A DNA stretch of 49,015 nt from Erysipelatoclostridium sp. An173 (GTDB taxonomy: Bacteria; Bacillota_I; Bacilli_A; Erysipelotrichales; Coprobacillaceae). This document shows positions 1 to 11,374 of this stretch, in pieces; position 1 is the stretch's first letter; each line of letters starts with the position of its first letter. The stretch lies in the NCBI RefSeq assembly GCF_002160495.1, contig NZ_NFKR01000020.1, positions 1 through 49,015 on the forward strand, read 5' to 3'. Made by a program: the position numbers and the translations under genes. The notes beneath the pieces are model-generated. The model was not told the DNA's origin and did not search any database. It worked only from the letters and a program-made list of their open reading frames with translations.

Positions 1-120
1 ATGAAGAGGAATCCTAATACTTAAAAATGCTCTTGATTATATTGAGAAGGAACACAATTGTACATCATAAATGATCATTTTTGTACAAAATTATATTGAC
101 ATTTATATAAGAACAAAGGA
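1..120. other. AT-rich sequence abutting the truncated ICE gene
   Basis: This stretch is clearly AT-richer than the ICE DNA that begins about base 118-124. Every frame has stops, and the reading frame of the downstream ATPase is blocked by TGA at 97-99. It contains the palindrome TTGTACAA (81-88), a partial copy TTGTACA (58-64) and ATGATCAT (71-78). No complete gene is visible. It could be host chromosome exposed by a deletion of the left part of the ICE, or the end of an element inserted into the ATPase gene. I recognise neither insertion-sequence ends nor a group II intron domain V here. Confidence 0.5.
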
Positions 121-981
121 CTTCTTGACCCGTATGTGATTATGAAGCGTACAAAGGACGCTGAAAGTCTGGCTATCGACATACTCACTTTTTTAACTGG
201 TATCAGCAGTCGTGACGGTGAGAAGTTCCCTGTCCTGCGTCGTGCAATCCGTTCCGTGACACAGAGTAAGCAGCGTGGACTATTCCGTGTCATTGATGAA
301 TTAAGAAAAGACGGTTCATCAGTGGCAGAGAATATTGCAGACCATATCGAAAGCATGACGGACTATGACTTTGCACATCTTCTGTTCTCGGACGGTGATG
401 TAAAGCAGTCCATCAGTTTAGACCGACAACTTAATATCATACAGGTGGCAGACCTTGTACTGCCAGACAAGGACACAAAGTTTGAAGAATACACCACAAT
501 GGAGCTACTTTCTGTGGCAATGCTTATCGTTATCAGTACCTTTGCCTTAGACTTTATCCATTCGGACAGAAGTATTTTCAAGATGGTGGACTTGGACGAA
601 GCGTGGACGTTTTTACAGGTGGCACAGGGAAAAGCACTCTCAAATAAATTGATTCGTGCTGGACGTTCCATGAACGCCGCTGTCTACTTTGTCACACAAA
701 ACTCTGGTGATGTAGACGACGAAAAGATGAAGAACAATATCGGTCTGAAATTTGCCTTTAGAAGCACAGATATAAAGGAAATCAAGAATACCCTTGAATT
801 TTTCGGTGTGGATAAGGAGGACGAGGGAAACCAGAAGCGACTTAGGGATTTGGAAAACGGGCAATGCCTGTTTCAAGATTTATACGGGCGTGTGGGTGTT
901 ATCCAGATACACCCTGTATTTTCAGACTTATTCCATGCCTTTGATACCAGACCGCCAGTGCAGACGGAAGAATCGAGGTGA
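121..981 (+). pseudogene. C-terminal part of a VirB4-type conjugation ATPase (Tn916 ORF16-like), 5' truncated
   Basis: The protein resembles the last third of the ATPase that powers Tn916-family conjugation; the family is about 800 residues and only about 287 remain. The frame reads LLDPYVIMKRTKDAESLA from base 121, with no proper ribosome-binding site, so the GTG at 136 is unlikely to be a true start. A Walker B stretch, FKMVDLDEAWTFL, is visible (around 573-615). The Walker A domain is missing. The gene ends in a GTGA overlap with the next gene, as in intact elements, and the remaining reading frame has no internal damage. The break is therefore at the left edge: a deletion, an insertion or a rearranged ICE. 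A conjugation defect is inferred unless an intact copy lies elsewhere. Confidence 0.85.
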
Positions 982-986
982 AGTCT

Positions 987-3095
987 ATGCGTAAACGAAA
1001 AATCCTAAGATTCTTCGGTATCGCTCTGCTGGTGGTTCTTGGTGTGCTGGTATTCCTGTCAATCACAGGTACGGTGGCTCATGCGGCTGGTCTGGTAGAC
1101 AATACGGTGAGTGACGCTAACGCCTATTCAAAATATCCGCTGGAAAACTACCAGTTGGACTTCTATGTGGATTCAAGCTGGGACTGGTTGCCCTGGAACT
1201 GGCTGGACGGTATCGGAAAAAGTATTCAGTACGGACTATATGCTATCACAAACTTTGTCTGGACGGTGAGCTTATACATTTCCAATGCGACGGGATATGT
1301 GGTACAGGAAGCCTACAAGCTGGACTTTATCTCGGATACCGCAAGCTCTATCGGAAAGAACATTCAGACGCTTGCAGGTGTCACTTCCAGCGGTTTTTCC
1401 AGTGAGGGGTTTTATGTGGGATTCCTGCTTATCCTTATTCTGGTAATGGGTATCTATGTCGCTTACACAGGACTTATCAAGAGGGAAACGACAAAAGCGG
1501 TTCATGCGGTAATCAATTTTCTTGTAGTCTTTATCCTGTCAGCGTCCTTTATTGCCTACGCTCCAAACTATATCAGTAAAATCAATGACTTTTCCGCTGA
1601 TATAAGCAGTTCGGCGTTATCGCTTGGCACAAAGATTGTGCTGCCCGATTCCAACAGCAAAGGAAAAGACAGCGTGGATTTGATAAGGGACAGCCTGTTT
1701 TCCATACAGGTGAAACAACCGTGGCTACTCTTGCAGTATGGGGAATCCGATATAGAAACACTGGGTTCTGACCGTGTGGAAAGCCTGTTATCGGCAAGTC
1801 CAGATACGGACGACAGAGAGGACGTTGTGGTTGAGGAAATCGAAGATAAGGACAATGACAACCTAAGTGTTACAAAGACCATGACCCGTTTAGGTATGGT
1901 GGTATTTTTGTTTATCTTTAATATCGGCATATCGGCTTTCGTGTTCCTGCTTACAGGTTTGATGATTTTCTCACAGGTGCTATTTATCATTTACGCCATG
2001 TTTTTACCGATTAGCTTTATCCTGTCTATGATACCGACTTATGAGGGCATGGCAAAAAAGGCACTTACGAAGCTGTTCAATACCATTATGATGAGGGCAG
2101 GAATCACGCTGATTATTACGACTGCTTTCAGCATATCCACTATGTTCTACTCGATTTCTTCTGGCTATCCGTTCTTTATGATTGCCTTTTTACAGATAGT
2201 CACTTTTGCAGGAATCTATTTTAAATTAGGTGATTTGATGGCAATGTTCAGTCTGCAATCTTCCGATACACAGCAGGTCAGCAGACGAATCATGCGACGA
2301 CCTTATATGTTCCTTAACCGCAGGGCAAGACGCTTGGAGCGTAAAATCGGAAGAACGGTTGCGGCTGGTGCTGCTGGCGGTGTCGCTTGTGCTGCGGCTG
2401 CTACTGCCACGAAAAAGACGGATAATACAAAATCAGCAGGCAGCGGTCATACCAGACCGAATAATACGCCATCTTCCCATAGTGGAGGTAATGGAAAGCC
2501 GCCTGCTTTACCAGTGAATCAAAAGCCGCCTGCTCTGCCCGATAAGCAGAACAGCGATTCTTCACAGACAGTACATAGCAGCTCTGCAAGCCAGACGCAG
2601 GAAACGAGTGCAACTTCTAAGCGTGGTATCGTGGATAAAAAAGCGGTATCGAAACAGCAGCCATCAGAGAAACAGAATAAACAAAGACCGCTGGTTGATA
2701 AGAAATCTGTGGAACAGGATAAGGAGCGACAGGACAATGGATCAGCGACAAAAGCTGGTACAGCGAAAGGAACTGCCCCATTGCATGAGCGACCAGTGAC
2801 AACGCCTGTATCTGCGAAAGCAGCTCCACAGGCGGCAGGTTCTAAACAGGAATCTGCTGCGAAAGACCGTCCTGCAACTGTGACAAAGGAACAATCACAA
2901 TCTTCCAGAGCAAAAGAACCAGTGACAAGACAACAGGAGAATGTAAGGGCACAGGCTGTCAGAGAATCTACATCAACAGCAAATAAACAATCTGCCCCTA
3001 CTACCCGTCAGACCGTACAGCGTCAGAAGCAGACAAAGACAGTAAGTAAAAAGACTACAAATAAAACGTCCAGTAGGAAAGGCGGCAAGAAATGA
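987..3095 (+). CDS. VirB6-like conjugative transfer membrane protein (Tn916 ORF15 / TcpH-like)
   Basis: This is a polytopic inner-membrane channel component of the mating machinery. The N-terminus has a signal-like hydrophobic segment ending near AHAAG. Further membrane segments follow in the middle (for example VGFLLILILVMGIYVAYTGL and a cluster around residues 300-410). The last ~240 residues are a hydrophilic Lys/Gln/Ser/Thr/Pro-rich tail, as in TcpH. I chose ATG 987 because GAGGTGA at 975-981 sits 5 nt upstream; a GTG at 978 in the same frame overlaps the upstream stop but would have no spacer. It overlaps the next gene by 4 nt (ATGA), so the two are translationally coupled. Confidence 0.9.
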   Translation: MRKRKILRFFGIALLVVLGVLVFLSITGTVAHAAGLVDNTVSDANAYSKYPLENYQLDFYVDSSWDWLPWNWLDGIGKSIQYGLYAITNFVWTVSLYISNATGYVVQEAYKLDFISDTASSIGKNIQTLAGVTSSGFSSEGFYVGFLLILILVMGIYVAYTGLIKRETTKAVHAVINFLVVFILSASFIAYAPNYISKINDFSADISSSALSLGTKIVLPDSNSKGKDSVDLIRDSLFSIQVKQPWLLLQYGESDIETLGSDRVESLLSASPDTDDREDVVVEEIEDKDNDNLSVTKTMTRLGMVVFLFIFNIGISAFVFLLTGLMIFSQVLFIIYAMFLPISFILSMIPTYEGMAKKALTKLFNTIMMRAGITLIITTAFSISTMFYSISSGYPFFMIAFLQIVTFAGIYFKLGDLMAMFSLQSSDTQQVSRRIMRRPYMFLNRRARRLERKIGRTVAAGAAGGVACAAAATATKKTDNTKSAGSGHTRPNNTPSSHSGGNGKPPALPVNQKPPALPDKQNSDSSQTVHSSSASQTQETSATSKRGIVDKKAVSKQQPSEKQNKQRPLVDKKSVEQDKERQDNGSATKAGTAKGTAPLHERPVTTPVSAKAAPQAAGSKQESAAKDRPATVTKEQSQSSRAKEPVTRQQENVRAQAVRESTSTANKQSAPTTRQTVQRQKQTKTVSKKTTNKTSSRKGGKK

Positions 3096-4096
3096 AGCTA
3101 AGACACTTCGCTGTGTTTGGTGGGATTTTCACGGTGATTATCGGTCTGCTTTTGTTTCTGTTTATCGTGACCGCAGATGATGAAGAAAGCAGCACTTCCC
3201 ACTATGATTTTTCTGGACTGAATCTGTCAGAGGAAGTGCTGAAACATCAGCCAACGGTAGAAAAATATGCGAAAGAATACGGGATTGAGGATTATGTGAA
3301 TTATCTGCTTGCTATCATGCAGGTGGAATCTGGCGGCACAGGTACGACAGACGTTATGCAGGCAAGTGAATCACTTGGTCTGCCGCTTAATTCCCTTTCC
3401 ATAGAGGAATCCATCAAACAGGGGTGTAAATACTTTTCGGAGCTTTTAAAATCCGCAGAAGCAAAAGGCTGTGACATCAATACAGTGGTACAAGCCTATA
3501 ACTATGGCGGTGGCTTTATTGATTATGTTTCCAGTCATGGGAAGAAATATACTTTTGAGCTGGCTGTCAGTTTCTCAAAGGATAAATCGGGCGGTGTCAA
3601 AGTTACCTATAAAAATGAGATTTCCATTAAGGAAAATGGCGGCTGGCGTTACAAGTACGGGAATATGTTCTACGTGCGGCTTGTGAATCAGTATTTAGCT
3701 GTTCCAAACTTTAGCGACGCTACGGTGCAGGCAATCTTCAATGAAGCATTGAAGTATCAAGGCTGGAAGTACGTCTATGGCGGCAGCAATCCAAACACCA
3801 GCTTTGATTGTTCTGGTCTTACCTCTTGGTGTTATGGAAAAGTTGGTATCAGTTTACCTCGTACCGCACAGGCACAGTATGACGCTACACAGCACATACC
3901 ATTATCACAGGCAAAGGCTGGTGACTTGGTATTCTTTCACTCAACTTATAATGCTGGAACGTATGTTACTCATGTGGGAATCTATGCAGGAAACAACAGA
4001 ATGTATCACGCTGGAAATCCTATCGGATATGCAGATTTAACAAGCTCGTACTGGCAGCAACATTTGATTGGTGCTGGACGGGTAAAAACGAAATAG
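3092..4096 (+). CDS. CwlT-like bifunctional peptidoglycan hydrolase (Tn916 ORF14-like)
   Basis: The enzyme locally opens the cell wall for the conjugation channel. An N-terminal membrane segment (about residues 8-27) is followed by a lysozyme-like domain with candidate catalytic Glu79 in MQVESGG, and then by an NlpC/P60 endopeptidase domain. The NlpC/P60 catalytic set is visible: Cys240 in FDCSG, His294 in THVGIY and His306 in YHAG. The length of 334 residues matches Tn916 ORF14. It sits between the VirB6-like and TcpC-like genes, overlapping the former by 4 nt and lying 15 nt from the latter, so it is in the transfer operon. Nothing indicates damage. Confidence 0.93.
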   Translation: MKLRHFAVFGGIFTVIIGLLLFLFIVTADDEESSTSHYDFSGLNLSEEVLKHQPTVEKYAKEYGIEDYVNYLLAIMQVESGGTGTTDVMQASESLGLPLNSLSIEESIKQGCKYFSELLKSAEAKGCDINTVVQAYNYGGGFIDYVSSHGKKYTFELAVSFSKDKSGGVKVTYKNEISIKENGGWRYKYGNMFYVRLVNQYLAVPNFSDATVQAIFNEALKYQGWKYVYGGSNPNTSFDCSGLTSWCYGKVGISLPRTAQAQYDATQHIPLSQAKAGDLVFFHSTYNAGTYVTHVGIYAGNNRMYHAGNPIGYADLTSSYWQQHLIGAGRVKTK

Positions 4097-4111
4097 AAAG
4101 GAAATGGTACT

Positions 4112-5017
4112 ATGATATTTAAGAAAAAGGACAAAGAATCGAAACCCAAAAAAGAAAGACACGTGCCTGTGATGAAAATAGGTACGCATAAGAAAACCGT
4201 GATTGCCTTATGGCTGGTGCTGATTGCAAGTGTCAGCTTTGGGGTGTATAAGAATTTCACCGCTATTGATATGCACACGGTACATGAGAAAGAAGTCATT
4301 GAACAGCGTATCGTTGATACCAACAAGATAGAGAACTTTGTAAAATCCTTTGCTTTAGTCTACTATTCTTGGAACAACACGCAGGAATCCATTGACGCAC
4401 GAACCGCAGCCATCAATAACTATCTGACAAAGAGCTTGCAGGATTTGAATGTTGATACGGTAAGACAGGATATACCTACAAGCTCTACGGTCACAGATGT
4501 GAAGATATGGGATATAGAAGATGCTGGAACAGACGACTTTACCGTTGTCTACTCGGTAGATCAGACGGTAACGGAGGGTGAACAGTCTATCGGTTATACT
4601 TCCGCTTATATGGTGGTGGTTCATGTAGATAGTGACGGAAACATGGTTATCACACAGAATCCGACCATCAGCAGCACACCAACAAAATCCAGCTATGAAC
4701 CAAAAACAAAGGAATCTGACGGAACGGTGGACGCTGCCACAACAGAGGAAGTGACAGAGTTCTTGGAAACTTTCTTCAAGCTCTATCCGACTGCAACCGA
4801 AAAGGAACTTGCCTACTATGTATCTGGGAATGTGCTTGAACCTGTAAACTGCGATTATGTGTTCTCGGAGCTGGTAAATCCTATCTTTATCAAAGATGGT
4901 GAACAGGTCAAAGTGTCGGTATCGGTGAAATATCTCGACCAGAGAACAAAGGCGACGCAGATTTCACAGTTTGACTTGACGCTGGAAAAAGATAGTAACT
5001 GGAAGATTGTAAAATAA
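4112..5017 (+). CDS. TcpC-like conjugative transfer protein (Tn916 ORF13-like)
   Basis: A bitopic membrane protein that in related systems is a structural part of the conjugation complex. It has a basic cytoplasmic start (residues 1-25), one membrane segment (about 28-45, VIALWLVLIASVSFGVY), then an extracellular region with the tandem NTF2-like fold known for TcpC, split by a Ser/Thr/Lys-rich linker around residues 185-210. The 301-residue length matches the family. GAAAGGAAATG upstream is an adequate ribosome-binding site. It is the last gene of the transfer block; in Tn916 the next genes are the tet(M) leader and tet(M), which are absent here. Confidence 0.9.
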   Translation: MIFKKKDKESKPKKERHVPVMKIGTHKKTVIALWLVLIASVSFGVYKNFTAIDMHTVHEKEVIEQRIVDTNKIENFVKSFALVYYSWNNTQESIDARTAAINNYLTKSLQDLNVDTVRQDIPTSSTVTDVKIWDIEDAGTDDFTVVYSVDQTVTEGEQSIGYTSAYMVVVHVDSDGNMVITQNPTISSTPTKSSYEPKTKESDGTVDAATTEEVTEFLETFFKLYPTATEKELAYYVSGNVLEPVNCDYVFSELVNPIFIKDGEQVKVSVSVKYLDQRTKATQISQFDLTLEKDSNWKIVK

Positions 5018-5025
5018 ATTGAAAA

Positions 5026-5062
5026 CAGACTTGCTAGATATTATATTTATATAGCAAGCCTT
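5026..5062 (+). terminator. possible terminator after the transfer genes
   Basis: CTTGCTA (5030-5036) pairs with TAGCAAG (5052-5058), and flanking CAGAC/GTCT can extend the stem with a bulge. There is no clean T-run, so efficiency is doubtful. Confidence 0.35.
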
Positions 5063-5141
5063 GTCTAACAATTTAAAACATATTTATCACTATACCGTTT
5101 TTCGGTAAGATGAAAATTGGGTGAAAGTTTCTGTAAGTCCA

Positions 5142-5201
5142 TTGACAGCTAATTCAAATTAGCCTATAATGTAACAGGCTAATTTGAATTAGCTCAGGAG
5201 G
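5142..5201 (+). promoter_or_regulatory. consensus promoter with two TetR operators
   Basis: TTGACA (5142-5147) and TATAAT (5165-5170) are separated by 17 bp. The palindrome GCTAATTCAAATTAGC (5148-5163) fills that spacer exactly. A second copy in reverse orientation, GCTAATTTGAATTAGC (5178-5193), lies between the -10 box and the ribosome-binding site AGGAGG (5196-5201). The centres are 30 bp apart, close to three helical turns. Repressor bound to either site would block polymerase. The likely ligand is the TetR protein encoded directly downstream, giving autorepression and control of the hydrolase gene. Confidence 0.88.
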
Positions 5202-5208
5202 TAGTGGA

Positions 5209-5850
5209 ATGACAACAAAACAGAAAATTTTGAATGAAGCGCTGACACTGTTTGCGGAAAAGGGATATAGTGCGGTTTATGTCGGTGAGATTGCCGATGC
5301 CGTAGGCATAAAAACACCATCACTATATAAACACTACAAGAGTAAGCAAGACATTTTTAATTCTTGTGTTGAAGTTTTTGCAGAACGAATGGAAAATATC
5401 AGAAATAATATGCAGCTACCGGGAAGTAAGACAGCTTCATTCTCTTATGAAACGATTGCTGAAGAACATCTTATCGAGGTTGCAAACGCTCTTTTTATGT
5501 TTTATTTGCAGGATAATGTGGCAGCAAAATTTCGTAAAATGCTGATGATAGAACGATACCATAACCCGGAAATTAACCGGCTGTTTGAAGATTTTTTTAT
5601 TATTAGAGCAATCGACCATGAAAAAGAAATATTTTCTAAACTTATAGACGCAAAAGTTATCAAAGGGGAAAATCCTCATATTATTGCTCTGCGTTTTTAC
5701 ACACCTATATTCTATCTGCTTCAAAAATATGATATGCGCCCTAATGAGATAGAGGAAGCCAAACATGAACTTACCTTAGTGGTGCAAGAATTTTGTAAAA
5801 CATATAAAGGAACAAGGAATGACAACGAAAAGGACAACAGGAAAGGCTAG
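5209..5850 (+). CDS. TetR/AcrR-family transcriptional repressor
   Basis: The first ~50 residues form a typical TetR DNA-binding domain, with the recognition region VGEIADAVGIKTPSLYKHY. The C-terminal ligand domain is unassigned. The start is fixed by AGGAGG at 5196-5201, 7 nt upstream. Two matching palindromes in its own promoter strongly suggest autorepression. The hydrolase gene begins inside its 3' end (32-nt overlap), so the two are co-transcribed and probably form one ligand-responsive unit. The pair occupies the cargo slot where tet(M) lies in Tn916. The inducer is unknown. Confidence 0.9.
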   Translation: MTTKQKILNEALTLFAEKGYSAVYVGEIADAVGIKTPSLYKHYKSKQDIFNSCVEVFAERMENIRNNMQLPGSKTASFSYETIAEEHLIEVANALFMFYLQDNVAAKFRKMLMIERYHNPEINRLFEDFFIIRAIDHEKEIFSKLIDAKVIKGENPHIIALRFYTPIFYLLQKYDMRPNEIEEAKHELTLVVQEFCKTYKGTRNDNEKDNRKG

Positions 5851-6751
5851 GAATAAGCACATGATAATATATGTTATAGGAGGTATTCTGCTTGTTCTTG
5901 CAGTCTATCTAATTGTTCAAGGAATACGGTGTAGTATAGCGGTAAAAGCAAGCAAAGAACGGCTTGCCGCTTATGAGGTTCAAACAGCTATATTGAGTTA
6001 TGGCAATATGAGTTACGTTGATACGGGAGAGGGCGAAACAATCCTATCTGTTCATGGAATTTTTGGTGGCTATGACCAATCCTATGATACATGTAAAGAT
6101 TTTAACTCTGATTATAGAATTATAGCTCCCTCACGATTTGGATATTTAGGTAGTGATATTTTGGGTGATGGGACACCTGCTGAACAGGCAAAGGCTTATG
6201 TTGAACTATTGGATAATTTAGGAATTGATAAAGTATATTTGTTGGCAACGTCGGCTGGCGGAAGCGTTGCTATTCGGTTCGCATTGGATTATCCTGAACG
6301 AATAAAAGGCTTAATTTTATATTGCTCCGCTATGCCATATATAGAAAAGCCGGAAAAGTATATGGAATATGCCGGACCGCCCGCTTTTTTATGTAATGAT
6401 TATGCTATGTTTTTAATTAGTCCATTATTCAATCTTGTTATGGGTATGGAGCCATCCACAATTTATAGTATGCTTCCTTGTGGTAGTAGAAAAAATGGCG
6501 TAATACTGGACGCTTCTGTTACTAATTCCGATATGGCAAGAAATTTTGATAGTTATCCTATTGAAGATTTACAAGCTCCAACACTGATTTTTCAAGCAAA
6601 AGACGATAAGCTAATAAACTATGCCGACACGGAAAATGTAGTAAAACGCTTCCCAAACTGCACATTTCTTTCTTTTGAAAACGGTGGACATTTAATGGTT
6701 GGACATGAGAAAGAAATCAAAGAAGCAGTTTTTAACTTTACAAAAAAGTAG
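5819..6751 (+). CDS. membrane-anchored alpha/beta hydrolase, ICE cargo
   Basis: After a short basic start, residues ~16-35 form a membrane anchor, so the catalytic domain is probably outside the cytoplasm. An oxyanion-hole loop (VHGIFGGYDQS), a nucleophile elbow (LLATSAGGSVA), an acid-containing loop (AKDDKLINYAD) and the catalytic His in NGGHLMVGH outline the fold. The elbow reads A-x-S-x-G rather than the common G-x-S-x-G. The start overlaps the TetR gene by 32 nt, with AAGGAACAAGG upstream. Co-expression with a repressor that has its own operators suggests response to a substrate or toxic ester, but the substrate cannot be told from sequence. Confidence 0.82.
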   Translation: MTTKRTTGKARNKHMIIYVIGGILLVLAVYLIVQGIRCSIAVKASKERLAAYEVQTAILSYGNMSYVDTGEGETILSVHGIFGGYDQSYDTCKDFNSDYRIIAPSRFGYLGSDILGDGTPAEQAKAYVELLDNLGIDKVYLLATSAGGSVAIRFALDYPERIKGLILYCSAMPYIEKPEKYMEYAGPPAFLCNDYAMFLISPLFNLVMGMEPSTIYSMLPCGSRKNGVILDASVTNSDMARNFDSYPIEDLQAPTLIFQAKDDKLINYADTENVVKRFPNCTFLSFENGGHLMVGHEKEIKEAVFNFTKK

Positions 6752-6794
6752 TAATTTGTACTAATTATATAATTACAGGAGGTTGACGGATAAT

Positions 6795-6986
6795 ATGGCA
6801 AAGATGGTATCTGAATGGGTACGTTGCCCTGTCTGTGGGAATAAAACAAGGTTGCAGATACGGAAAGATACGGAACTGAAAAACTTTCCCCTCTACTGCC
6901 CAAAGTGCAAACAGGAAAGTTTGATTGAAGCAAAGGATTTACAGGTAACAGTCGTTAAAAATCATAATGAAAAAATGCGGAGCTGA
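6795..6986 (+). CDS. cysteine-rich KTR-type conjugative-element protein
   Basis: A 63-residue protein with two CPxC-type knuckles, RCPVCGNKTRLQIR and LYCPKCKQESLI, that probably bind one zinc ion. Small proteins with this KTR signature are regular passengers of Tn916-like elements next to the cargo gene; their function is not known to me. AGGAGG at 6777-6782 lies 12 nt before ATG 6795; an in-frame TTG at 6783 directly abuts the site and is unlikely. The gene stands alone between the hydrolase and a terminator. Confidence 0.85.
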   Translation: MAKMVSEWVRCPVCGNKTRLQIRKDTELKNFPLYCPKCKQESLIEAKDLQVTVVKNHNEKMRS

Positions 6987-7065
6987 ACATAAAAACGTTT
7001 TTGGAAAAGAGCTTTTAATAGGTGCTTAATAATACAAATTATCAAAGAGCCAGACGCTAAGACGC

Positions 7066-7120
7066 AGAGCCGATAATACCGAGAATGAATGAAATTTCTT
7101 GGGTTATCGGCTTATTTTAT
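7066..7120 (+). terminator. terminator between KTR gene and reverse XRE gene
   Basis: AGCCGATAA at 7068-7076 pairs with TTATCGGCTT around 7104-7113, with extra CC/GG pairs, followed by ATTTTATTT. It sits between convergent genes and could serve the KTR gene. Confidence 0.7.
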
Positions 7121-7141
7121 TTAAGAGCCAAAAGTGGAGGA

Positions 7142-7498
7142 TTACTCGTCCTCCACTTTCTTAGATTTAATGATTCCATCAGCGACACTTTCCATGATAA
7201 TTAAATCCTTATCGGAAAGGCTGTCAAGTTGTTTTTCCAACTGTCGTCTTCTGGTGCTTTTATCCAGATCAGACGCAGGCAGGAAAAATTCATCAACGGA
7301 AACATTAAGTAATGATACAAGGTCATAGAACACCTGTAAACTTGGGTGCTGCCCTTTGTTTTCGATATTTGTTAAATAGCGTGGGTCAATCTCAATCATT
7401 GCTCCCACTTGCTCACGAGTTAATTTTTGCTTTTTACGAGCTTCTTTGATTGCAAGACCAAAAGCTCTAAAATCATATTTATCTTCTTTTTTACGCAT
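7142..7498 (-). CDS. XRE-family regulator (Tn916 ORF9-like)
   Basis: A helix-turn-helix domain spans residues ~12-66 ([29 protein letters not shown], interrupted here only by reading). A short C-terminal helical part rich in Lys/Asp follows. In Tn916 the equivalent ORF9 is proposed to repress transcription of the ORF7-ORF8 regulatory genes. Here it is likewise divergent from them, with a 574-bp intergenic region between. An AGGTGATTAC stretch precedes ATG on the reverse strand. It is probably the main brake on excision and transfer of the element, by homology only. Confidence 0.85.
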
Positions 7499-7684
7499 AT
7501 GTAATCACCTCACTATATTTTACTGTTCCTGTTGATTTTCTAACAGGTACAAAAAAACGTATAGTATGGTTTATCAGTTCCTATTATGCGTAAAAGCTTA
7601 AAAGGAGTGCTGCCTAGCGGTAAATAAAAAAAACCGTTATTAACAGTACCATTTTTGCGTGTCAAAAAATATCTTTACTTCAAT

Positions 7685-7707
7685 GGCGGTTTAAAAGCCG
7701 CCTTTTT
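7685..7707 (+). terminator. terminator in the regulatory intergenic region
   Basis: GGCGG (7685-7689) and CCGCC pair across TTTAAAAG and are followed by TTTTTCTTTTTT. It lies inside the 7499-8072 gap upstream of ORF7 and looks like an attenuator because no gene end is close by on this strand. Confidence 0.75.
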
Positions 7708-7768
7708 CTTTTTTCCATCAAAAAACAGCATATAGGTTTTGTTTTAGCGGCTCTGGGAGGTAGCCGCA

Positions 7769-7828
7769 TTGAAAGACCTGTATAGACAACATTTTTCGAC
7801 ATATCCGTTATTGTCAAAAAAAATCTAA
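7769..7828 (+). CDS. possible 19-residue leader peptide ahead of ORF7
   Basis: A TTG-started frame reads MKDLYRQHFSTYPLLSKKI and ends in TAA. GGGAGG (7755-7760) lies 8 nt upstream and is placed in the loop of a GCGGCT/AGCCGC hairpin (7747-7752 with 7762-7767). A strong terminator follows at 7894-7936. The arrangement resembles translation-coupled attenuation, as in the tet(M) leader of Tn916, but no such leader is known to me at this spot. Chance is possible for so short a frame. Confidence 0.35.
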   Translation: MKDLYRQHFSTYPLLSKKI

Positions 7829-7893
7829 CTTTCACAGCGGTACAAAATACCCTTGAATGTGGTTTTTCACATTACATAGCAGGAACAATCGTA

Positions 7894-7936
7894 AAAGCAC
7901 AAGAACAGCATTTCTTTTATGCTCTTGTGCTTTTTT
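7894..7936 (+). terminator. strong terminator upstream of the sigma-like gene
   Basis: GCACAAG (7897-7903) pairs with CTTGTGC (7924-7930), extended by AGCAT/ATGCT, and is followed by TTTTTT. It lies 136 bp before the ORF7-like start with no gene ending nearby, so it probably attenuates ORF7-ORF8 transcription. Confidence 0.82.
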
Positions 7937-8072
7937 GCTGCTTAAAAATTTTTTTCAAATTCTTTTCTGAAAACGCAACAAATAGCTGCTGCGTGGGTAG
8001 CTACTGTGCGGAAAGGGGGATAGAGGGAAAACAACCCTTATTCACTCTCACGCAGAAAGGAGGTGAAAAACT

Positions 8073-8489
8073 ATGAAGTCATCTTCTTTCGAGCAGGCTA
8101 TTCAAGCACAGTTTGATTGCCTTACAAAGAAAGTCATTAAAAGAGCAGCAATGAAGTATAACCGTGATATTTCAAGACGCTTGAAGCATGAAGTTCCATT
8201 TTCTGAAATATCGGATTTGGAATTGAATAAAGCTGGCGTTTATGACAAGTATTCCAGCGATTATACAGCGTTCAATGTTCTTGGCATGGAAGTACAAGTA
8301 TCTGACGACCAGTTGAGTAAAGCACTCAAATGTTTACCAGAGAGAAAACGAAATATTATTTTGTTGTCATACTTTATGGATATGTCTGACGCAGAAATTG
8401 GAGAGCTTATGAATGTGGTTCGTACCACTGTTTACCGTCACAGGACAAGCACTCTGGAAGATTTACGAAAAATGATGGAGGAGGAATAA
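8073..8489 (+). CDS. sigma-70-like regulatory protein (Tn916 ORF7-like)
   Basis: The C-terminal half has a sigma region-4 helix-turn-helix (CLPERKRNIILLSYFMDMSD, then EIGELMNVVRTTVYRHR). Region 2 is poorly conserved, as in Tn916 ORF7. In that element the homologue is needed for conjugation and acts as a positive regulator of the transfer genes. AAAGGAGGTG lies directly upstream. It is followed 2 nt later by ORF8, so the pair is one unit, preceded by terminators at 7685 and 7894 that could attenuate it. Confidence 0.87.
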   Translation: MKSSSFEQAIQAQFDCLTKKVIKRAAMKYNRDISRRLKHEVPFSEISDLELNKAGVYDKYSSDYTAFNVLGMEVQVSDDQLSKALKCLPERKRNIILLSYFMDMSDAEIGELMNVVRTTVYRHRTSTLEDLRKMMEEE

Positions 8490-8491
8490 AA

Positions 8492-8728
8492 GTGGATAAT
8501 AGCAAAAAACACATACCGTTTGCTGTGATTGTGGCGGCTACTAATGGTGATGAAGCTGCAATACAGGAAATCTTGGATTTTTATGACGGTTACATATCAA
8601 AGTTGAGTTTACGCAAATTGTATGATGAATACGGAAATGTCTACATGGTAGTGGATTCTGAATTGAAAGGCAGAATACAGGCTGCGGTGATGGATATGAT
8701 TGCAAACTTTGAGATTATCGTAATTTAA
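8492..8728 (+). CDS. helix-turn-helix protein (Tn916 ORF8-like)
   Basis: A 78-residue protein with the start VAATNGDEAAIQEILDFYDGYISKLS, the typical helix-turn-helix domain found directly after ORF7 in Tn916 relatives. GGAGGAA lies upstream of the GTG start. Its length matches ORF8. In Tn916 it is part of the regulatory read-through circuit active in the circular form; here it is followed by a hairpin and a long non-coding stretch before xis. Confidence 0.82.
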   Translation: MDNSKKHIPFAVIVAATNGDEAAIQEILDFYDGYISKLSLRKLYDEYGNVYMVVDSELKGRIQAAVMDMIANFEIIVI

Positions 8729-8740
8729 CCATTCCGACGG

Positions 8741-8772
8741 GCGGAGCTTTTCTCCCTTTCCTTATGCTCCGC
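8741..8772 (+). terminator. hairpin after ORF8
   Basis: GCGGAGC (8741-8747) pairs perfectly with GCTCCGC (8766-8772). The 3' side lacks a T-run, so it may be an RNA-end or processing structure instead of a full terminator. Confidence 0.5.
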
Positions 8773-8858
8773 TTGTCAATCTATGAAAGTCTATTATTTC
8801 AGATAATGGATTTTCACAGACTGACAAATACAGTCGGGTGTTCTTTGACAACTGAATA

Positions 8859-9084
8859 AAACAATCAGATACGTTTGATATGCAGCGAGCCAGCGGATAT
8901 TGTACGCCATGACCTTTCAAAACAAAGTGAGCGATTCATGCAATGATCTGTGAGCGACTTTTGGAATGGTCGTTTAGCCATGACCTGTATATCTGGATAA
9001 TGATACACCCGTATGACACGGTTCACCCATCAGAATGGGAAAGGTGAAAGTCCTGTGGAGCTTGCTAAAGCCATCTGATTGTTT
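8859..9084 (+). ncRNA. candidate structured RNA between ORF8 and xis
   Basis: This stretch has no good open frame but nests several helices. AAACAATCAGAT (8859-8870) and ATCTGATTGTTT (9073-9084) are perfectly complementary and close the whole domain. Inside, CCA..GATAT (near 8891-8901) pairs with ATATC.TGG (near 8989-8996); GACCTTTCAAAA (8911-8922) pairs with TTTTGGAATGGTC (8959-8971) with one bulge; CCGT/ACGG surrounds ATGAC near 9010-9022; and TTCACC pairs with GGTGAA near 9023-9049. GCCATGACCT occurs twice (8906-8915, 8977-8986), as does GTGAGCGA (8927-8934, 8950-8957). I do not recognise the class. Strand is inferred from the neighbours. Confidence 0.6.
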
Positions 9085-9137
9085 AGAAGAAAAGGTATTA
9101 TCAGCAGCAAAATATATGTTCTCATTTCATGGAGTTG

Positions 9138-9146
9138 TGATATAAT
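9138..9146 (+). promoter_or_regulatory. extended -10 promoter for xis-int
   Basis: TGATATAAT combines a TG extension with a perfect TATAAT at 9141-9146, about 55 bp before the xis start. No good -35 box is seen (TTCTCA at 9119-9124 is the best). Confidence 0.6.
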
Positions 9147-9200
9147 AACTTCATTAAACGAGTGTGTTTTGCTGCTGTCACTACGAAAGGAGTCTTATTA

Positions 9201-9401
9201 GTGATAAGTGATACACAAAATGCACAACCCTTAAAAAAGGAAAAAAAGACTTATACAGTAGAGGAAATTGCTGAACAACTAGGAGTTAGCAAAAAGGTAG
9301 CTTATTCATTGGTAAAAAGCGGTCAATTTAGTTATGTTCGTGTTGGTCGAGTTATACGAGTATCAAAAGTTTCTTTCGATAAATGGTTAAATCAAATTTA
9401 A
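9201..9401 (+). CDS. xis: excisionase (Xis)
   Basis: A 66-residue MerR-like winged-helix protein of the Tn916 Xis type: YTVEEIAEQLGVSKKVAYSLVKSG followed by a wing with RVGRVIRVSKVSFDKWL. It binds DNA near the element ends and directs integrase toward excision. The GTG at 9201 is preferred because AAAGGAG (9186-9192) is 8 nt upstream; a longer frame from 9162 has no ribosome-binding site. Tn916 Xis is 67 residues. The int gene follows after 19 nt, so both are co-transcribed. Confidence 0.92.
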   Translation: MISDTQNAQPLKKEKKTYTVEEIAEQLGVSKKVAYSLVKSGQFSYVRVGRVIRVSKVSFDKWLNQI

Positions 9402-9420
9402 CTGTTAAGGAGAGAAATAT

Positions 9421-10866
9421 ATGGCTACAATCAAACAAAGAAAATCAAGTTTTTCCGTTATTTACTGGTACTTAAATGATACTGGAGAAAGAAAGCAAAA
9501 ATGGGACACGCTGGAAACAAGAAAAGAAGCAAAACAGCGTAAAGCCTTTATAGAATACTATCAAGAAAAATATGGATATGTGTTAGTTCCTTTAGAGGAA
9601 CAATTTGCACATCAAATCGAGGATTCTAAAAAGGATTTGGAAGTTGCTGACAAGGATATTACATTGCGTGAGTTCCTAAAGATTTTTGTCAATCTCTATG
9701 GCACATCTAAATGGTCGCCTAGTACATTCAGTGGCAAGGTAGGTACTATTGAAAATTACATCAATCCGATTATCGGTGATTGGAAACTCAATGACATTAC
9801 AACTAAAAGCCTATCAAAATACTACAACGATTTATTAAGCGTTCCAGAAGTACCACGAGCAAACAGAAAAGCAACTGGTCGTTGCGTACAACCAGCTAAC
9901 ATCAAAAAAATACATGACATTATCCGTTGTGCCTTAAACCAAGCTATCCGTTGGGAGTACATTGACACAAACAAAAGAAATCCTGCGTCATTAGCTACTT
10001 TACCAAAAGTACCTAAAGTCAGACGAAAAGTATGGAGCATACAGACATTCCGTGAAGCGGTAAAAGCTGCGGAAGATGATTTACTTTCAATCTGTATGCA
10101 CTTAGCTTTTTCCTGTTCTATGCGTATTGGTGAGATTACAGGTCTTACATGGGAAGATGTGATTATTGACGAAGAATCCATTGCTACAAATAATGCAAAG
10201 GTAATCATCAATAAGGAACTTTCAAGAATAAATGCAGAAGCAATGCAGAAATTGAAAGAAAAAGATATTATCAAGATTTTTCCAACACAGAAACCACACT
10301 GTACTACAAGACTTGTCTTGAAAACACCAAAAACAGAAACAAGTAATAGAACTGTCTGGCTACCGAAAACTGTTGCTGAATTATTAGTACAGTATAAAAA
10401 AGACCAACAGGAATTAAAAGAATTTCTCGGAAGTGCATATAACGATTATAACCTTGTTATTGCATTAGAAAATGGAAACCCTGTGGAAAGCCGCATTGTC
10501 AGAGATAGATTCCAAAAGCTCTGCGAAGAAAACAACTATGAAACTGTTGTATTCCATAGCCTACGTCATTTGAGTACAGGGTACAAATTAAAAATGACGA
10601 ATGGTGACGTGAAATCCGTACAGGGTGATACAGGTCATGCAGAAGCAGAAATGGTTACAGATGTTTATTCTAAAATCATTGACGAGGACAGACGTTTCAA
10701 TGCACAGAAGATGGATAGAGAGTTTTATTCTACTCTCAATGACGATATGGACAACCAACAGCAACATACAGGTTTGACTGATAGTGATATGGCACTCTTG
10801 GAGTTGCTCAAATCCCTGTCGCCAGAGATGAAAGAACAGCTTTTAAAGCAAACACTTCAAAAGTAA
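9421..10866 (+). CDS. int: tyrosine-recombinase integrase of the ICE
   Basis: Residues ~1-60 form an arm-binding domain (KQRKSSFSVIYWYLNDTGERK), followed by a SAM-like core-binding domain and a C-terminal catalytic domain. The catalytic set is complete: Arg235 (SMRIGE), His379 and Arg382 (HSLRH), His406 (GHAEAE) and Tyr416 (VYSKI). At 481 residues it is longer than Tn916 Int (405), mainly in the middle and in a ~50-residue C-terminal tail. Tn916 Int is promiscuous, whereas the right-hand junction here lies in a tRNA-Arg(CCU) anticodon loop, so this enzyme is probably site-specific. GGAGAG upstream serves as ribosome-binding site. Confidence 0.94.
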   Translation: MATIKQRKSSFSVIYWYLNDTGERKQKWDTLETRKEAKQRKAFIEYYQEKYGYVLVPLEEQFAHQIEDSKKDLEVADKDITLREFLKIFVNLYGTSKWSPSTFSGKVGTIENYINPIIGDWKLNDITTKSLSKYYNDLLSVPEVPRANRKATGRCVQPANIKKIHDIIRCALNQAIRWEYIDTNKRNPASLATLPKVPKVRRKVWSIQTFREAVKAAEDDLLSICMHLAFSCSMRIGEITGLTWEDVIIDEESIATNNAKVIINKELSRINAEAMQKLKEKDIIKIFPTQKPHCTTRLVLKTPKTETSNRTVWLPKTVAELLVQYKKDQQELKEFLGSAYNDYNLVIALENGNPVESRIVRDRFQKLCEENNYETVVFHSLRHLSTGYKLKMTNGDVKSVQGDTGHAEAEMVTDVYSKIIDEDRRFNAQKMDREFYSTLNDDMDNQQQHTGLTDSDMALLELLKSLSPEMKEQLLKQTLQK

Positions 10867-10872
10867 TTTTTC

Positions 10873-10937
10873 AAAAGTGTTAGCAAATTTTCCAAAATCC
10901 AGTGATTTTTCACCAGAAATAGAAAAAGTGTTAGCAA
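10873..10937 (+). repeat. paired integrase arm-type direct repeats
   Basis: AAAAGTGTTAGCAA occurs at 10873-10886 and again at 10924-10937, 51 bp apart, immediately after int. Integrases with an N-terminal arm-binding domain bind such paired repeats near element ends; assignment is by position and pattern. Confidence 0.7.
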
Positions 10938-11036
10938 GCCTACTTCCTCAATAGTCTTAACAAATAATCGAATACAAAATATTGAAAATAAAAAAAGTCC
11001 TTTTTCAGCAGAGATAGAAAGCCATAAATAAAGAAA

Positions 11037-11068
11037 GCTGAAAACCTAGAAAAATCAAGGCTTTCAGC
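11037..11068 (-). terminator. terminator of the ICE-borne tRNA gene
   Basis: On the reverse strand GCTGAAAGCCT pairs with AGGTTTTCAGC (one mismatch) and is followed by TTTCTTTATTT. It lies 8 bp past the tRNA 3' end. Confidence 0.72.
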
Positions 11069-11076
11069 GTTGTTTG

Positions 11077-11153
11077 TGGCGTCCCCGACAGGAATCGAAC
11101 CTGCGACGTTCCGCTTAGGAGGCGGACCCTCTATCCTGCTGAGGTACGAGGAC
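11077..11153 (-). tRNA. tRNA-Arg(CCU), complete, probably carried by the ICE
   Basis: All arms fold: acceptor GTCCTCG/CGGGGAC (one G-T pair), D-stem CCTC/GAGG, anticodon stem TCCGC/GCGGA around CTCCTAA (anticodon CCT), T-stem GCAGG/CCTGT with loop TTCGATT, discriminator G and an encoded CCA. It decodes AGG. It lies between int and the broken host tRNA-Arg(CCU), so it is inside the element if that break is the integration site. It has its own promoter (11186) and terminator (11037). C10-G25 in the D-stem is less usual. The body sequence differs from the broken gene, so it is not a simple repair copy. Confidence 0.93.
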
Positions 11154-11185
11154 ATTATTAAAAATCTATTCAAATTTATCTAGTT

Positions 11186-11194
11186 ATCATATCA
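11186..11194 (-). promoter_or_regulatory. extended -10 promoter for the ICE tRNA
   Basis: On the reverse strand TGATATGAT gives TG-A plus TATGAT, a near-consensus -10 box, placing the transcript start ~25 nt before the tRNA. No good -35 is visible. Confidence 0.5.
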
Positions 11195-11208
11195 AAAGGC
11201 GTTTGTTC

Positions 11209-11256
11209 CAACTAGCCCTTAGGAGGGCACTGCTCTATCCACTGAGCTACGGGGGC
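11209..11256 (-). pseudogene. 5' part of the host tRNA-Arg(CCU), broken at the ICE junction
   Basis: Reading the reverse strand from 11256: acceptor 5' strand GCCCCCG, D-arm GCTC/GAGC, 5' anticodon strand GTGCC, loop CTCCTAA (anticodon CCT). Next comes GGGCT, which cannot pair with GTGCC (G-G and T-C clashes), then AGTTG like a variable loop, after which homology to any tRNA stops: no T-arm and no 3' acceptor strand. GGGCTAGTTG looks like the corresponding part of a different tRNA-Arg(CCU). The sequence thus looks like a chimera joined within the anticodon loop. It cannot give a functional tRNA. Confidence 0.85.
11218..11226. other. putative attachment-site core (right ICE-chromosome junction)
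   Basis: CTTAGGAGG is the complement of the anticodon loop and its closing pair. tRNA pairing is consistent on the chromosomal side and fails immediately on the ICE side, which places strand exchange here. The same 9 bp occur in the ICE tRNA at 11114-11122. The second junction lies outside the window. Confidence 0.6.
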
Positions 11257-11374
11257 ATATTTAATTTTTAAATGTCGATTATTACTATCTAAAATCAAGT
11301 ATAGTTAATATGTCCCTATGATTTTAACATTACTTGTTTCAAAAAGCAAATTATTATAATTGTTATTAAAAAAG

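Follow-up and report, generated by a model that had tools for sequence, protein, structure and literature searches.

A Tn916-type ICE at a disrupted tRNA-Arg(CCU) gene that very probably brings its own replacement tRNA

tRNA genes are usually viewed as stable, vertically inherited markers and as passive landing sites that repair themselves. The window studied here, a stretch of 49,015 nucleotides that makes up the entire contig C36 in the 122-contig draft genome (G000) of the gut bacterium Erysipelatoclostridium sp. An173, raises the question of what follows when such a gene is broken and not repaired. On its minus strand the 5' half of a tRNA-Arg(CCU) gene runs into the right part of a Tn916-type ICE, the two ends of which lie on separate contigs, C36 and C63. 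The locus is very probably the right attachment junction of this ICE, with the host gene destroyed, a replacement tRNA supplied by the ICE, and serial replacement taking place behind a fixed promoter. The features that bear on this reading are listed in Table 1.

Table 1. Features at the right end of the ICE (window coordinates)
Feature	Position	Strand	Basis
Right part of Tn916-type ICE	1..11217	+	Pfam + NCBIfam
Tyrosine integrase, 481 aa	9421..10866	+	Pfam Phage_integrase PF00589 + Phage_int_SAM_3; relatives adjoin element tRNA
Arm-type integrase site candidate TTGCTAACAC, copy 2	10873..10886	-	Exact 14-bp direct repeat
Arm-type integrase site candidate TTGCTAACAC, copy 1	10924..10937	-	Exact 14-bp direct repeat
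Hairpin and T-rich stretch after element tRNA, likely terminator	11030..11075	-	Inverted repeat 21 nt, 81% complementary
Complete element-borne tRNA-Arg(CCU) with encoded CCA, probable replacement tRNA	11077..11153	-	ARAGORN; Rfam RF00005 60.2 bits; covariation
ICE right-end linker (GGGCTAGTTGGAACAAACGCC...), core to element tRNA	11154..11217	-	Conserved at right ends of related elements
Shared core CTCCTAAG, anticodon loop + one base, strand-exchange site	11218..11225	-	Common to attR, attL and element tRNAs of compared loci
Host tRNA-Arg(CCU) 5' half, disrupted	11226..11256	-	Sequence; partner 3' half G000:C63:6129(-); rejoined cloverleaf
Host promoter-like TTGCTT-17-TAAAAT upstream of disrupted tRNA	11321..11349	-	Motif and position kept, with small changes, in compared Thomasclavelia loci

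The two junctions and the split host gene

Read on the minus strand, positions 11256-11226 give GCCCCCGTAGCTCAGTGGATAGAGCAGTGCC, which comprises the acceptor strand GCCCCCG, a D-arm and GTGCC, the 5' strand of the anticodon stem. The anticodon loop CTCCTAA follows at 11225-11219 and is succeeded by GGGCTAGTTGGAACAAACGCC. Past CTCCTAA the sequence is not that of a tRNA, and the half at 11219-11256(-) has no matching 3' half there. An earlier note on this DNA had described such a broken 5' half without a 3' half, and had predicted a partner at the left end of the ICE, with the core followed by a strand that starts GGCAC or similar and then by CGGGGGC.

A strict search for this left end (GCCCCCG N20-45 TTAGGAGG) gave no match in the genome, its gap being too short for the window tRNA, which has a 7-nt variable loop and additional bases separating the motifs. 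The end was located on C63 with a looser T-loop pattern for 3' tRNA halves, and the predicted partner (CTCCTAA, GGCAT... and CGGGGGC) is indeed present there. At G000:C63:6129(-) the sequence runs through GTACCAGTTACCACAGTTCACAGAGAA, CTCCTAA and GGCATGTTTTGCGTAGGTTCGACTCCTATCGGGGGCGCCA, and the host 3' half with its CGGGGGC strand is fused to a Tn916-type left end. Similar left ends (AGGATAATCGAA...CTACCAC...GAA directly followed by CTCCTAA) occur in bin G008, in Lachnoclostridium An169 (G057) and in C. porci (G056). Both ends of the ICE in Lachnoclostridium An169 are found on a single contig, 25.6 kb apart.

When the host flanks of C36 and C63 are rejoined over CTCCTAA, they form a tRNA-Arg(CCU) with 7/7 acceptor and 5/5 anticodon-stem pairs. 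Rejoined halves give a canonical tRNA in all six genomes for which this was done (the window genome and five others). Both stems are fully paired in 6/6 matched half pairs versus 1/30 mixed pairs; the sole mixed combination that pairs fully, the G057 5' half with the G063 3' half, is helped by G-U pairs. Both junctions and the rejoined tRNA thus agree with the proposal of the earlier note that the ICE integrated in the anticodon loop of tRNA-Arg(CCU), with strand exchange inside CTCCTAA.

The core shared by the compared loci is 8 bp long, and 9 bp in the window host, where one extra G is shared. The same note had suggested that the adjoining GGGCTAGTTG was captured from another tRNA-Arg(CCU). 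This is possible, as 9/10 bases equal GGACTAGTTG of G006, yet the case for capture is weak because related elements vary at this place (GGGCGAAGTG, GGGCGTGTTG, GGGTCAGGTG).

The broken half might instead be an old pseudogene, with the tRNA at 11077-11153 as the resident host gene and the ends of the ICE elsewhere. Decayed halves do lie between cutC and an intact tRNA in G006, with no related integrase found nearby. However, the matching 3' half is present at the left end of the ICE in the same genome, and the intact tRNA and linker are common to ICEs of other bacterial classes, whereas the broken halves differ by host. Same-genus relatives, to which the earlier note had looked for a refutation, speak the same way: in G004 and on contig C142 of G008 a single, uninterrupted tRNA-Arg(CCU) lies upstream of cutC, unaccompanied by a broken half. 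We therefore regard this alternative as highly improbable, and an old pseudogene combined with integration elsewhere is ruled out by the left-end junction and the rejoined cloverleaf. Contig C39 of the same bin, G008, carries an ICE left end joined to the 3' half, and its flanks and those of C142 are 83-89% alike; the two form a natural pair of empty and filled sites, probably from two strains. Synteny between the host flank on C63 and ICE-free relatives was not demonstrable.

Elements in tRNA genes as a rule rebuild their target (Islander, PMC4383910), and at this site in Sporofaciens a 2.6-kb insert (L062/L133) leaves a whole host tRNA. Conventional integration, in which a 3' half in attP rebuilds the host tRNA, would nonetheless be next to impossible to reconcile with the window. 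After CTCCTAAG the ICE reads GGGCTAGTTGGAACAAACGCC, without a T-arm or acceptor strand, and the shared core of about 8 bp resembles that of published non-rebuilding phages. The sequence at 11154-11225 contains no fragment that restores the target, and a functional tRNA is rebuilt at neither attL nor attR, as the earlier note had held. Conventional rebuilding by the window ICE is thus ruled out by the two junction sequences. What is found is a tyrosine integrase, an attB within a host tRNA gene, and a short common core with no functional tRNA at either junction, as in integration of the tRNA-dependent lysogeny type.

The tRNA carried by the element

The earlier note had spoken of a chimeric, broken host tRNA. 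The gene is indeed split; what was overlooked is a whole tRNA-Arg(CCU) that the ICE carries 64 bp from its right end, with the integrase gene on one side of it and the broken half on the other. The element thus encodes a complete tRNA of the isotype of its target, as in the tRNA-dependent lysogeny type. This is the only Arg-CCU tRNA that we found in the genome, in which Arg-ACG, CCG and UCU tRNAs are present; the tRNA list misses some expected genes (no Met was seen), so either the draft or the search is incomplete. The hairpin that follows folds into an 11-pair stem with a 2-pair tip, and received no flag in a strict terminator scan.

Among 11 distinct element tRNAs, pairing is kept in 231/231 cells and 11 of the 21 pairs are changed on both sides in some sequence, a level of covariation reached by 0/500 shuffles; element tRNAs therefore evolve as working tRNAs. 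The 77-nt tRNA is identical in six loci (L052, L053, L055, L058, L059 and L065), and identical element tRNAs are thus found in unrelated hosts. The broken host halves of these loci, where present, are not alike, their mean identity being 0.54 across ungapped stretches of 32 nt.

Two exact 14-bp repeats (AAAAGTGTTAGCAA) lie between the hairpin and the integrase gene, and similar arm-type motifs (TTGCTAACAG and CTGCTAACAC) lie close to the left end, at a distance of some 150 nt from the core. With candidate arm sites both beyond the tRNA and near the left end, the tRNA is part of the presumed attP, placed between core and arm sites, and presumably travels together with the recombination site. 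No circular form of the ICE was seen; its attP is expected to have the left end GAGAA joined to CTCCTAAGGGCTAGTTGG. The start of the linker (window 11197-11217, GGGC..GTTGGARCAA..GCC) is kept and partly palindromic in related elements, with the variants GTTGCAAC in L064 and GTTATAAC in G007; its function may be that of a core-type integrase site, or it may form an RNA hairpin.

We propose that the integrase recombines attP with the anticodon loop (CTCCTAAG) of the host tRNA-Arg(CCU). The host gene is split, with its 5' half beside cutC and its 3' half at the left end of the ICE. Transcription of the ICE tRNA would then start at the old host promoter and read on through the broken half, and the transcript would be processed into a working tRNA that compensates for the host loss. 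Excision would restore the host gene while both host halves stay undamaged. As an outcome, the promoter would stay in place while the one chromosomal tRNA gene behind it is exchanged again and again.

To judge from its sequence and position, the captured host promoter probably drives the element tRNA now. The motif TTTGCTT-17-TAAAAT is kept in the genus, with the variants TTTGCAT (G005), TTTGATT (G001) and TACAAT (G002), while the stretch behind it varies widely in length because of relic halves; a strict promoter scan made no call at this motif. Transcription from a promoter inside the ICE is possible but doubtful. The linker of the window ICE holds a weak sigma-70-like match (TAGATA-17-AATAAT at 11182-11154), of a kind not commoner than in shuffled sequences. 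Against such a promoter stand the conservation of the host motif in the genus and the linkers of relatives, which range from 33 bp upwards and, at just 33-44 bp in L060, L061 and L064, leave little space. In silico, partial misfolding of the tRNA is preferred in the full precursor, where the cloverleaf pairs have a mean probability of 0.45, because GCCCC of the broken half pairs with the element's acceptor strand; co-transcriptional folding may offer an escape from this predicted misfold.

It could also be that the element tRNA serves the translation of the ICE itself or counters tRNA-cutting defences, with its proximity to attP a by-product and the host in no need of it. AGG, the codon read by this tRNA, accounts for 13/117 Arg codons in ICE genes (136-10866) and for 4/185 in nearby host genes (11360-41491), and the host tRNA-Arg(UCU) could read it. 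With that tRNA present and AGG rare in the sampled host genes (0.6 per 1000 codons), loss of Arg-CCU is not necessarily lethal, and the element may need the tRNA more than the host, whose own need may be modest. However, the needs of the element's own translation predict neither the anticodon of the broken gene nor a position in the attachment region in 17/18 loci, and we consider this explanation unlikely. Replacement of the destroyed host gene remains the preferred reading.

Related loci and serial replacement beside cutC

By scanning named genomes with the integrase we obtained 18 loci, in Absicoccus, Blautia, Clostridium, Lachnoclostridium, Anaerotignum, Sporofaciens, Thomasclavelia and other hosts. 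The arrangement thus recurs in related elements across Erysipelotrichia and Clostridia. A complete tRNA-Arg(CCU) lies just inside the right end in 17 loci and is split by a further insertion in L062. A broken host half lies directly outside in 15 of the 18; the exceptions are L052, which ends at the core, L067, in which the half is lost, and L062, in which it is displaced. A circular record from Subdoligranulum has the same anatomy and an integrase 44.5% identical. Among phage and plasmid records, relatives of the integrase do not exceed 45% identity, and viral contigs contained none. In a phylum-wide draw of 392 genomes, which leaned to small-genome lineages and says little about frequency in gut Clostridia, the right-end pattern was found in the window genome only.

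Several loci hold further copies or fragments of the gene. In Sporofaciens musculi (L133, G060:C2:332081-334685), the 2.6-kb insert is flanked by a whole host tRNA-Arg(CCU) on one side and by the 3' half of the ICE tRNA on the other, as if the stretch between two CTCCTAA cores had been replaced. Locus L147 (G014:C8:23469-27981) has four tRNA-Arg(CCU) 3' halves that all point the same way at spacings of about 1-2.4 kb, each preceded by similar element-end sequence. In Blautia Marseille-P3087 (L136, G062:C2:2120416), the tRNA that survives as a broken 5' half at the right end of the ICE also exists as a whole copy 24.6 kb away; the bases upstream of both copies are nearly identical, and the two perhaps reflect tandem elements or recombination. 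At L077 (G032:C46, 1242-1318), a tRNA-Arg(CCU) has the 5' half of the tRNA of the second element in G007 (described below) and the 3' half of a Sporofaciens-type host gene. Its acceptor strands mismatch, and it looks like a hybrid from exchange in the anticodon loop.

A tRNA-Arg(CCU) adjoins cutC in 8/8 same-genus genomes searched. Clear relic halves are absent in G004, G005, G001 and G008:C142. Elsewhere broken halves are stacked: C. porci (L055) has three one after another ahead of the ICE tRNA, an intact tRNA in G006 is preceded by two decayed halves, and stacks also occur in L057 and L066. In G006 the 100 kb that were read contained no related integrase, which suggests that a mobile tRNA can outlast its element. 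In G007, a tRNA identical to that of the window ICE is split between C157:7903 (5' half, with an ICE-like linker) and C161:1873 (3' half). The second element, which splits it, has its own tRNA-Arg(CCU), a 44%-identical integrase and, apparently, ParA/ParB-like genes. An element-borne tRNA has therefore itself served as a target.

On balance we favour a model in which a family of conjugative elements keeps one chromosomal tRNA socket. Each newcomer would split the resident tRNA-Arg(CCU), place its own behind the same host promoter and become the next target; the native gene would be lost, and the cell would come to depend on a mobile tRNA that can outlast the element. A translation gene repeatedly exchanged by conjugative elements across bacterial classes would be one way for a cell to become dependent on a mobile element, and such exchange may account for the strong divergence of tRNA-Arg(CCU) among close species.

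Comparison with known systems

The principle of tRNA-dependent lysogeny has been established with genetic proof for the actinobacteriophages Fionnbharth, LeBron and Gaia (Guerrero-Bustamante and Hatfull 2024, PMC10865867). These phages share with the window ICE a short core, no rebuilt tRNA, and a cognate tRNA in the element (PMC10865867). They are, however, phages of Actinobacteria that use tRNA-Lys, Ile2 or Leu (PMC10865867), whereas the present case is a conjugative element of Bacillota at tRNA-Arg(CCU), known from sequence; here the tRNA lies between the core and the arm-site candidates, and element tRNAs are reused as targets. By analogy the window ICE would work like tRNA-dependent lysogeny, yet it is not a member of that class, which is defined by temperate phages. 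What looks new relative to the phages is the ICE version, the tRNA between the attP core and the arm sites, the old host promoter that probably drives each newcomer, the use of element tRNAs as the next target, and stacks of up to three halves. The principle shown for phages in 2024 would thus extend to ICEs, with the addition that a tRNA brought by one element can serve the next as its integration site. Our literature search found no ICE of this type, which does not prove that none has been described.

A survey of Sinorhizobium meliloti (2024) found an inactivated tRNA replaced by prophage sequences (PMC11476347), and so likewise describes a host tRNA gene replaced by one arriving with an integrated element. 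There the elements are prophages and islands, and the authors saw no evidence that brought-in tRNA genes act as new integration sites (PMC11476347); here such reuse is shown by the stacks and by G007. Prophage Lj965 of Lactobacillus johnsonii, as far as it is described where it is cited in PMC10865867, does not rebuild the tRNA at its junction and encodes the cognate tRNA. It is likewise found in Bacillota, although it is a phage. Islander class A islands share the anticodon-loop crossover and the tyrosine integrase, but carry a gene-restoring part (PMC4383910) that the window ICE lacks.

The gene content of the element is that of Tn916-type ICEs, with two DUF961 genes, FtsK, a Rep_trans relaxase, TcpF, CD3337/EF1877, NlpC/P60, TcpC, regulators, and int at the right end. 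Tn916 itself integrates at AT-rich sites, whereas the window ICE is site-specific for the tRNA-Arg(CCU) anticodon loop and has a 481-aa integrase and a tRNA in attP. Its right part on C36 encodes TcpF/VirB4, CD3337/EF1877, NlpC/P60, TcpC, cargo, regulators and int. The left part, inside the junction on C63, has an adhesin-like gene, the two DUF961 genes, an FtsK-type gene and the Rep_trans relaxase, and so complements the Tn916-type half in the window. Relaxase, FtsK-type coupling protein, VirB4 (TcpF) and TcpC follow the Tn916 order, with a middle stretch missing between C63 and C36. With a conjugation module and a relaxase, and no phage structural genes among those scanned, the element is not a temperate phage.

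The TcpF/VirB4 gene (136-981) lacks the N-terminal two thirds at the contig start (profile positions 535-812 of 813), and its reading frame has stops within the first ~120 bases. A TetR-type regulator and an alpha/beta hydrolase (5209-6751), between the TcpC gene and the regulators, are apparently cargo. Two Rfam matches also fall within the ICE, an SQ2397 cis-regulator at 7486-7723 (170.5 bits) and a pemK RNA at 8997-9058 (50.1 bits).
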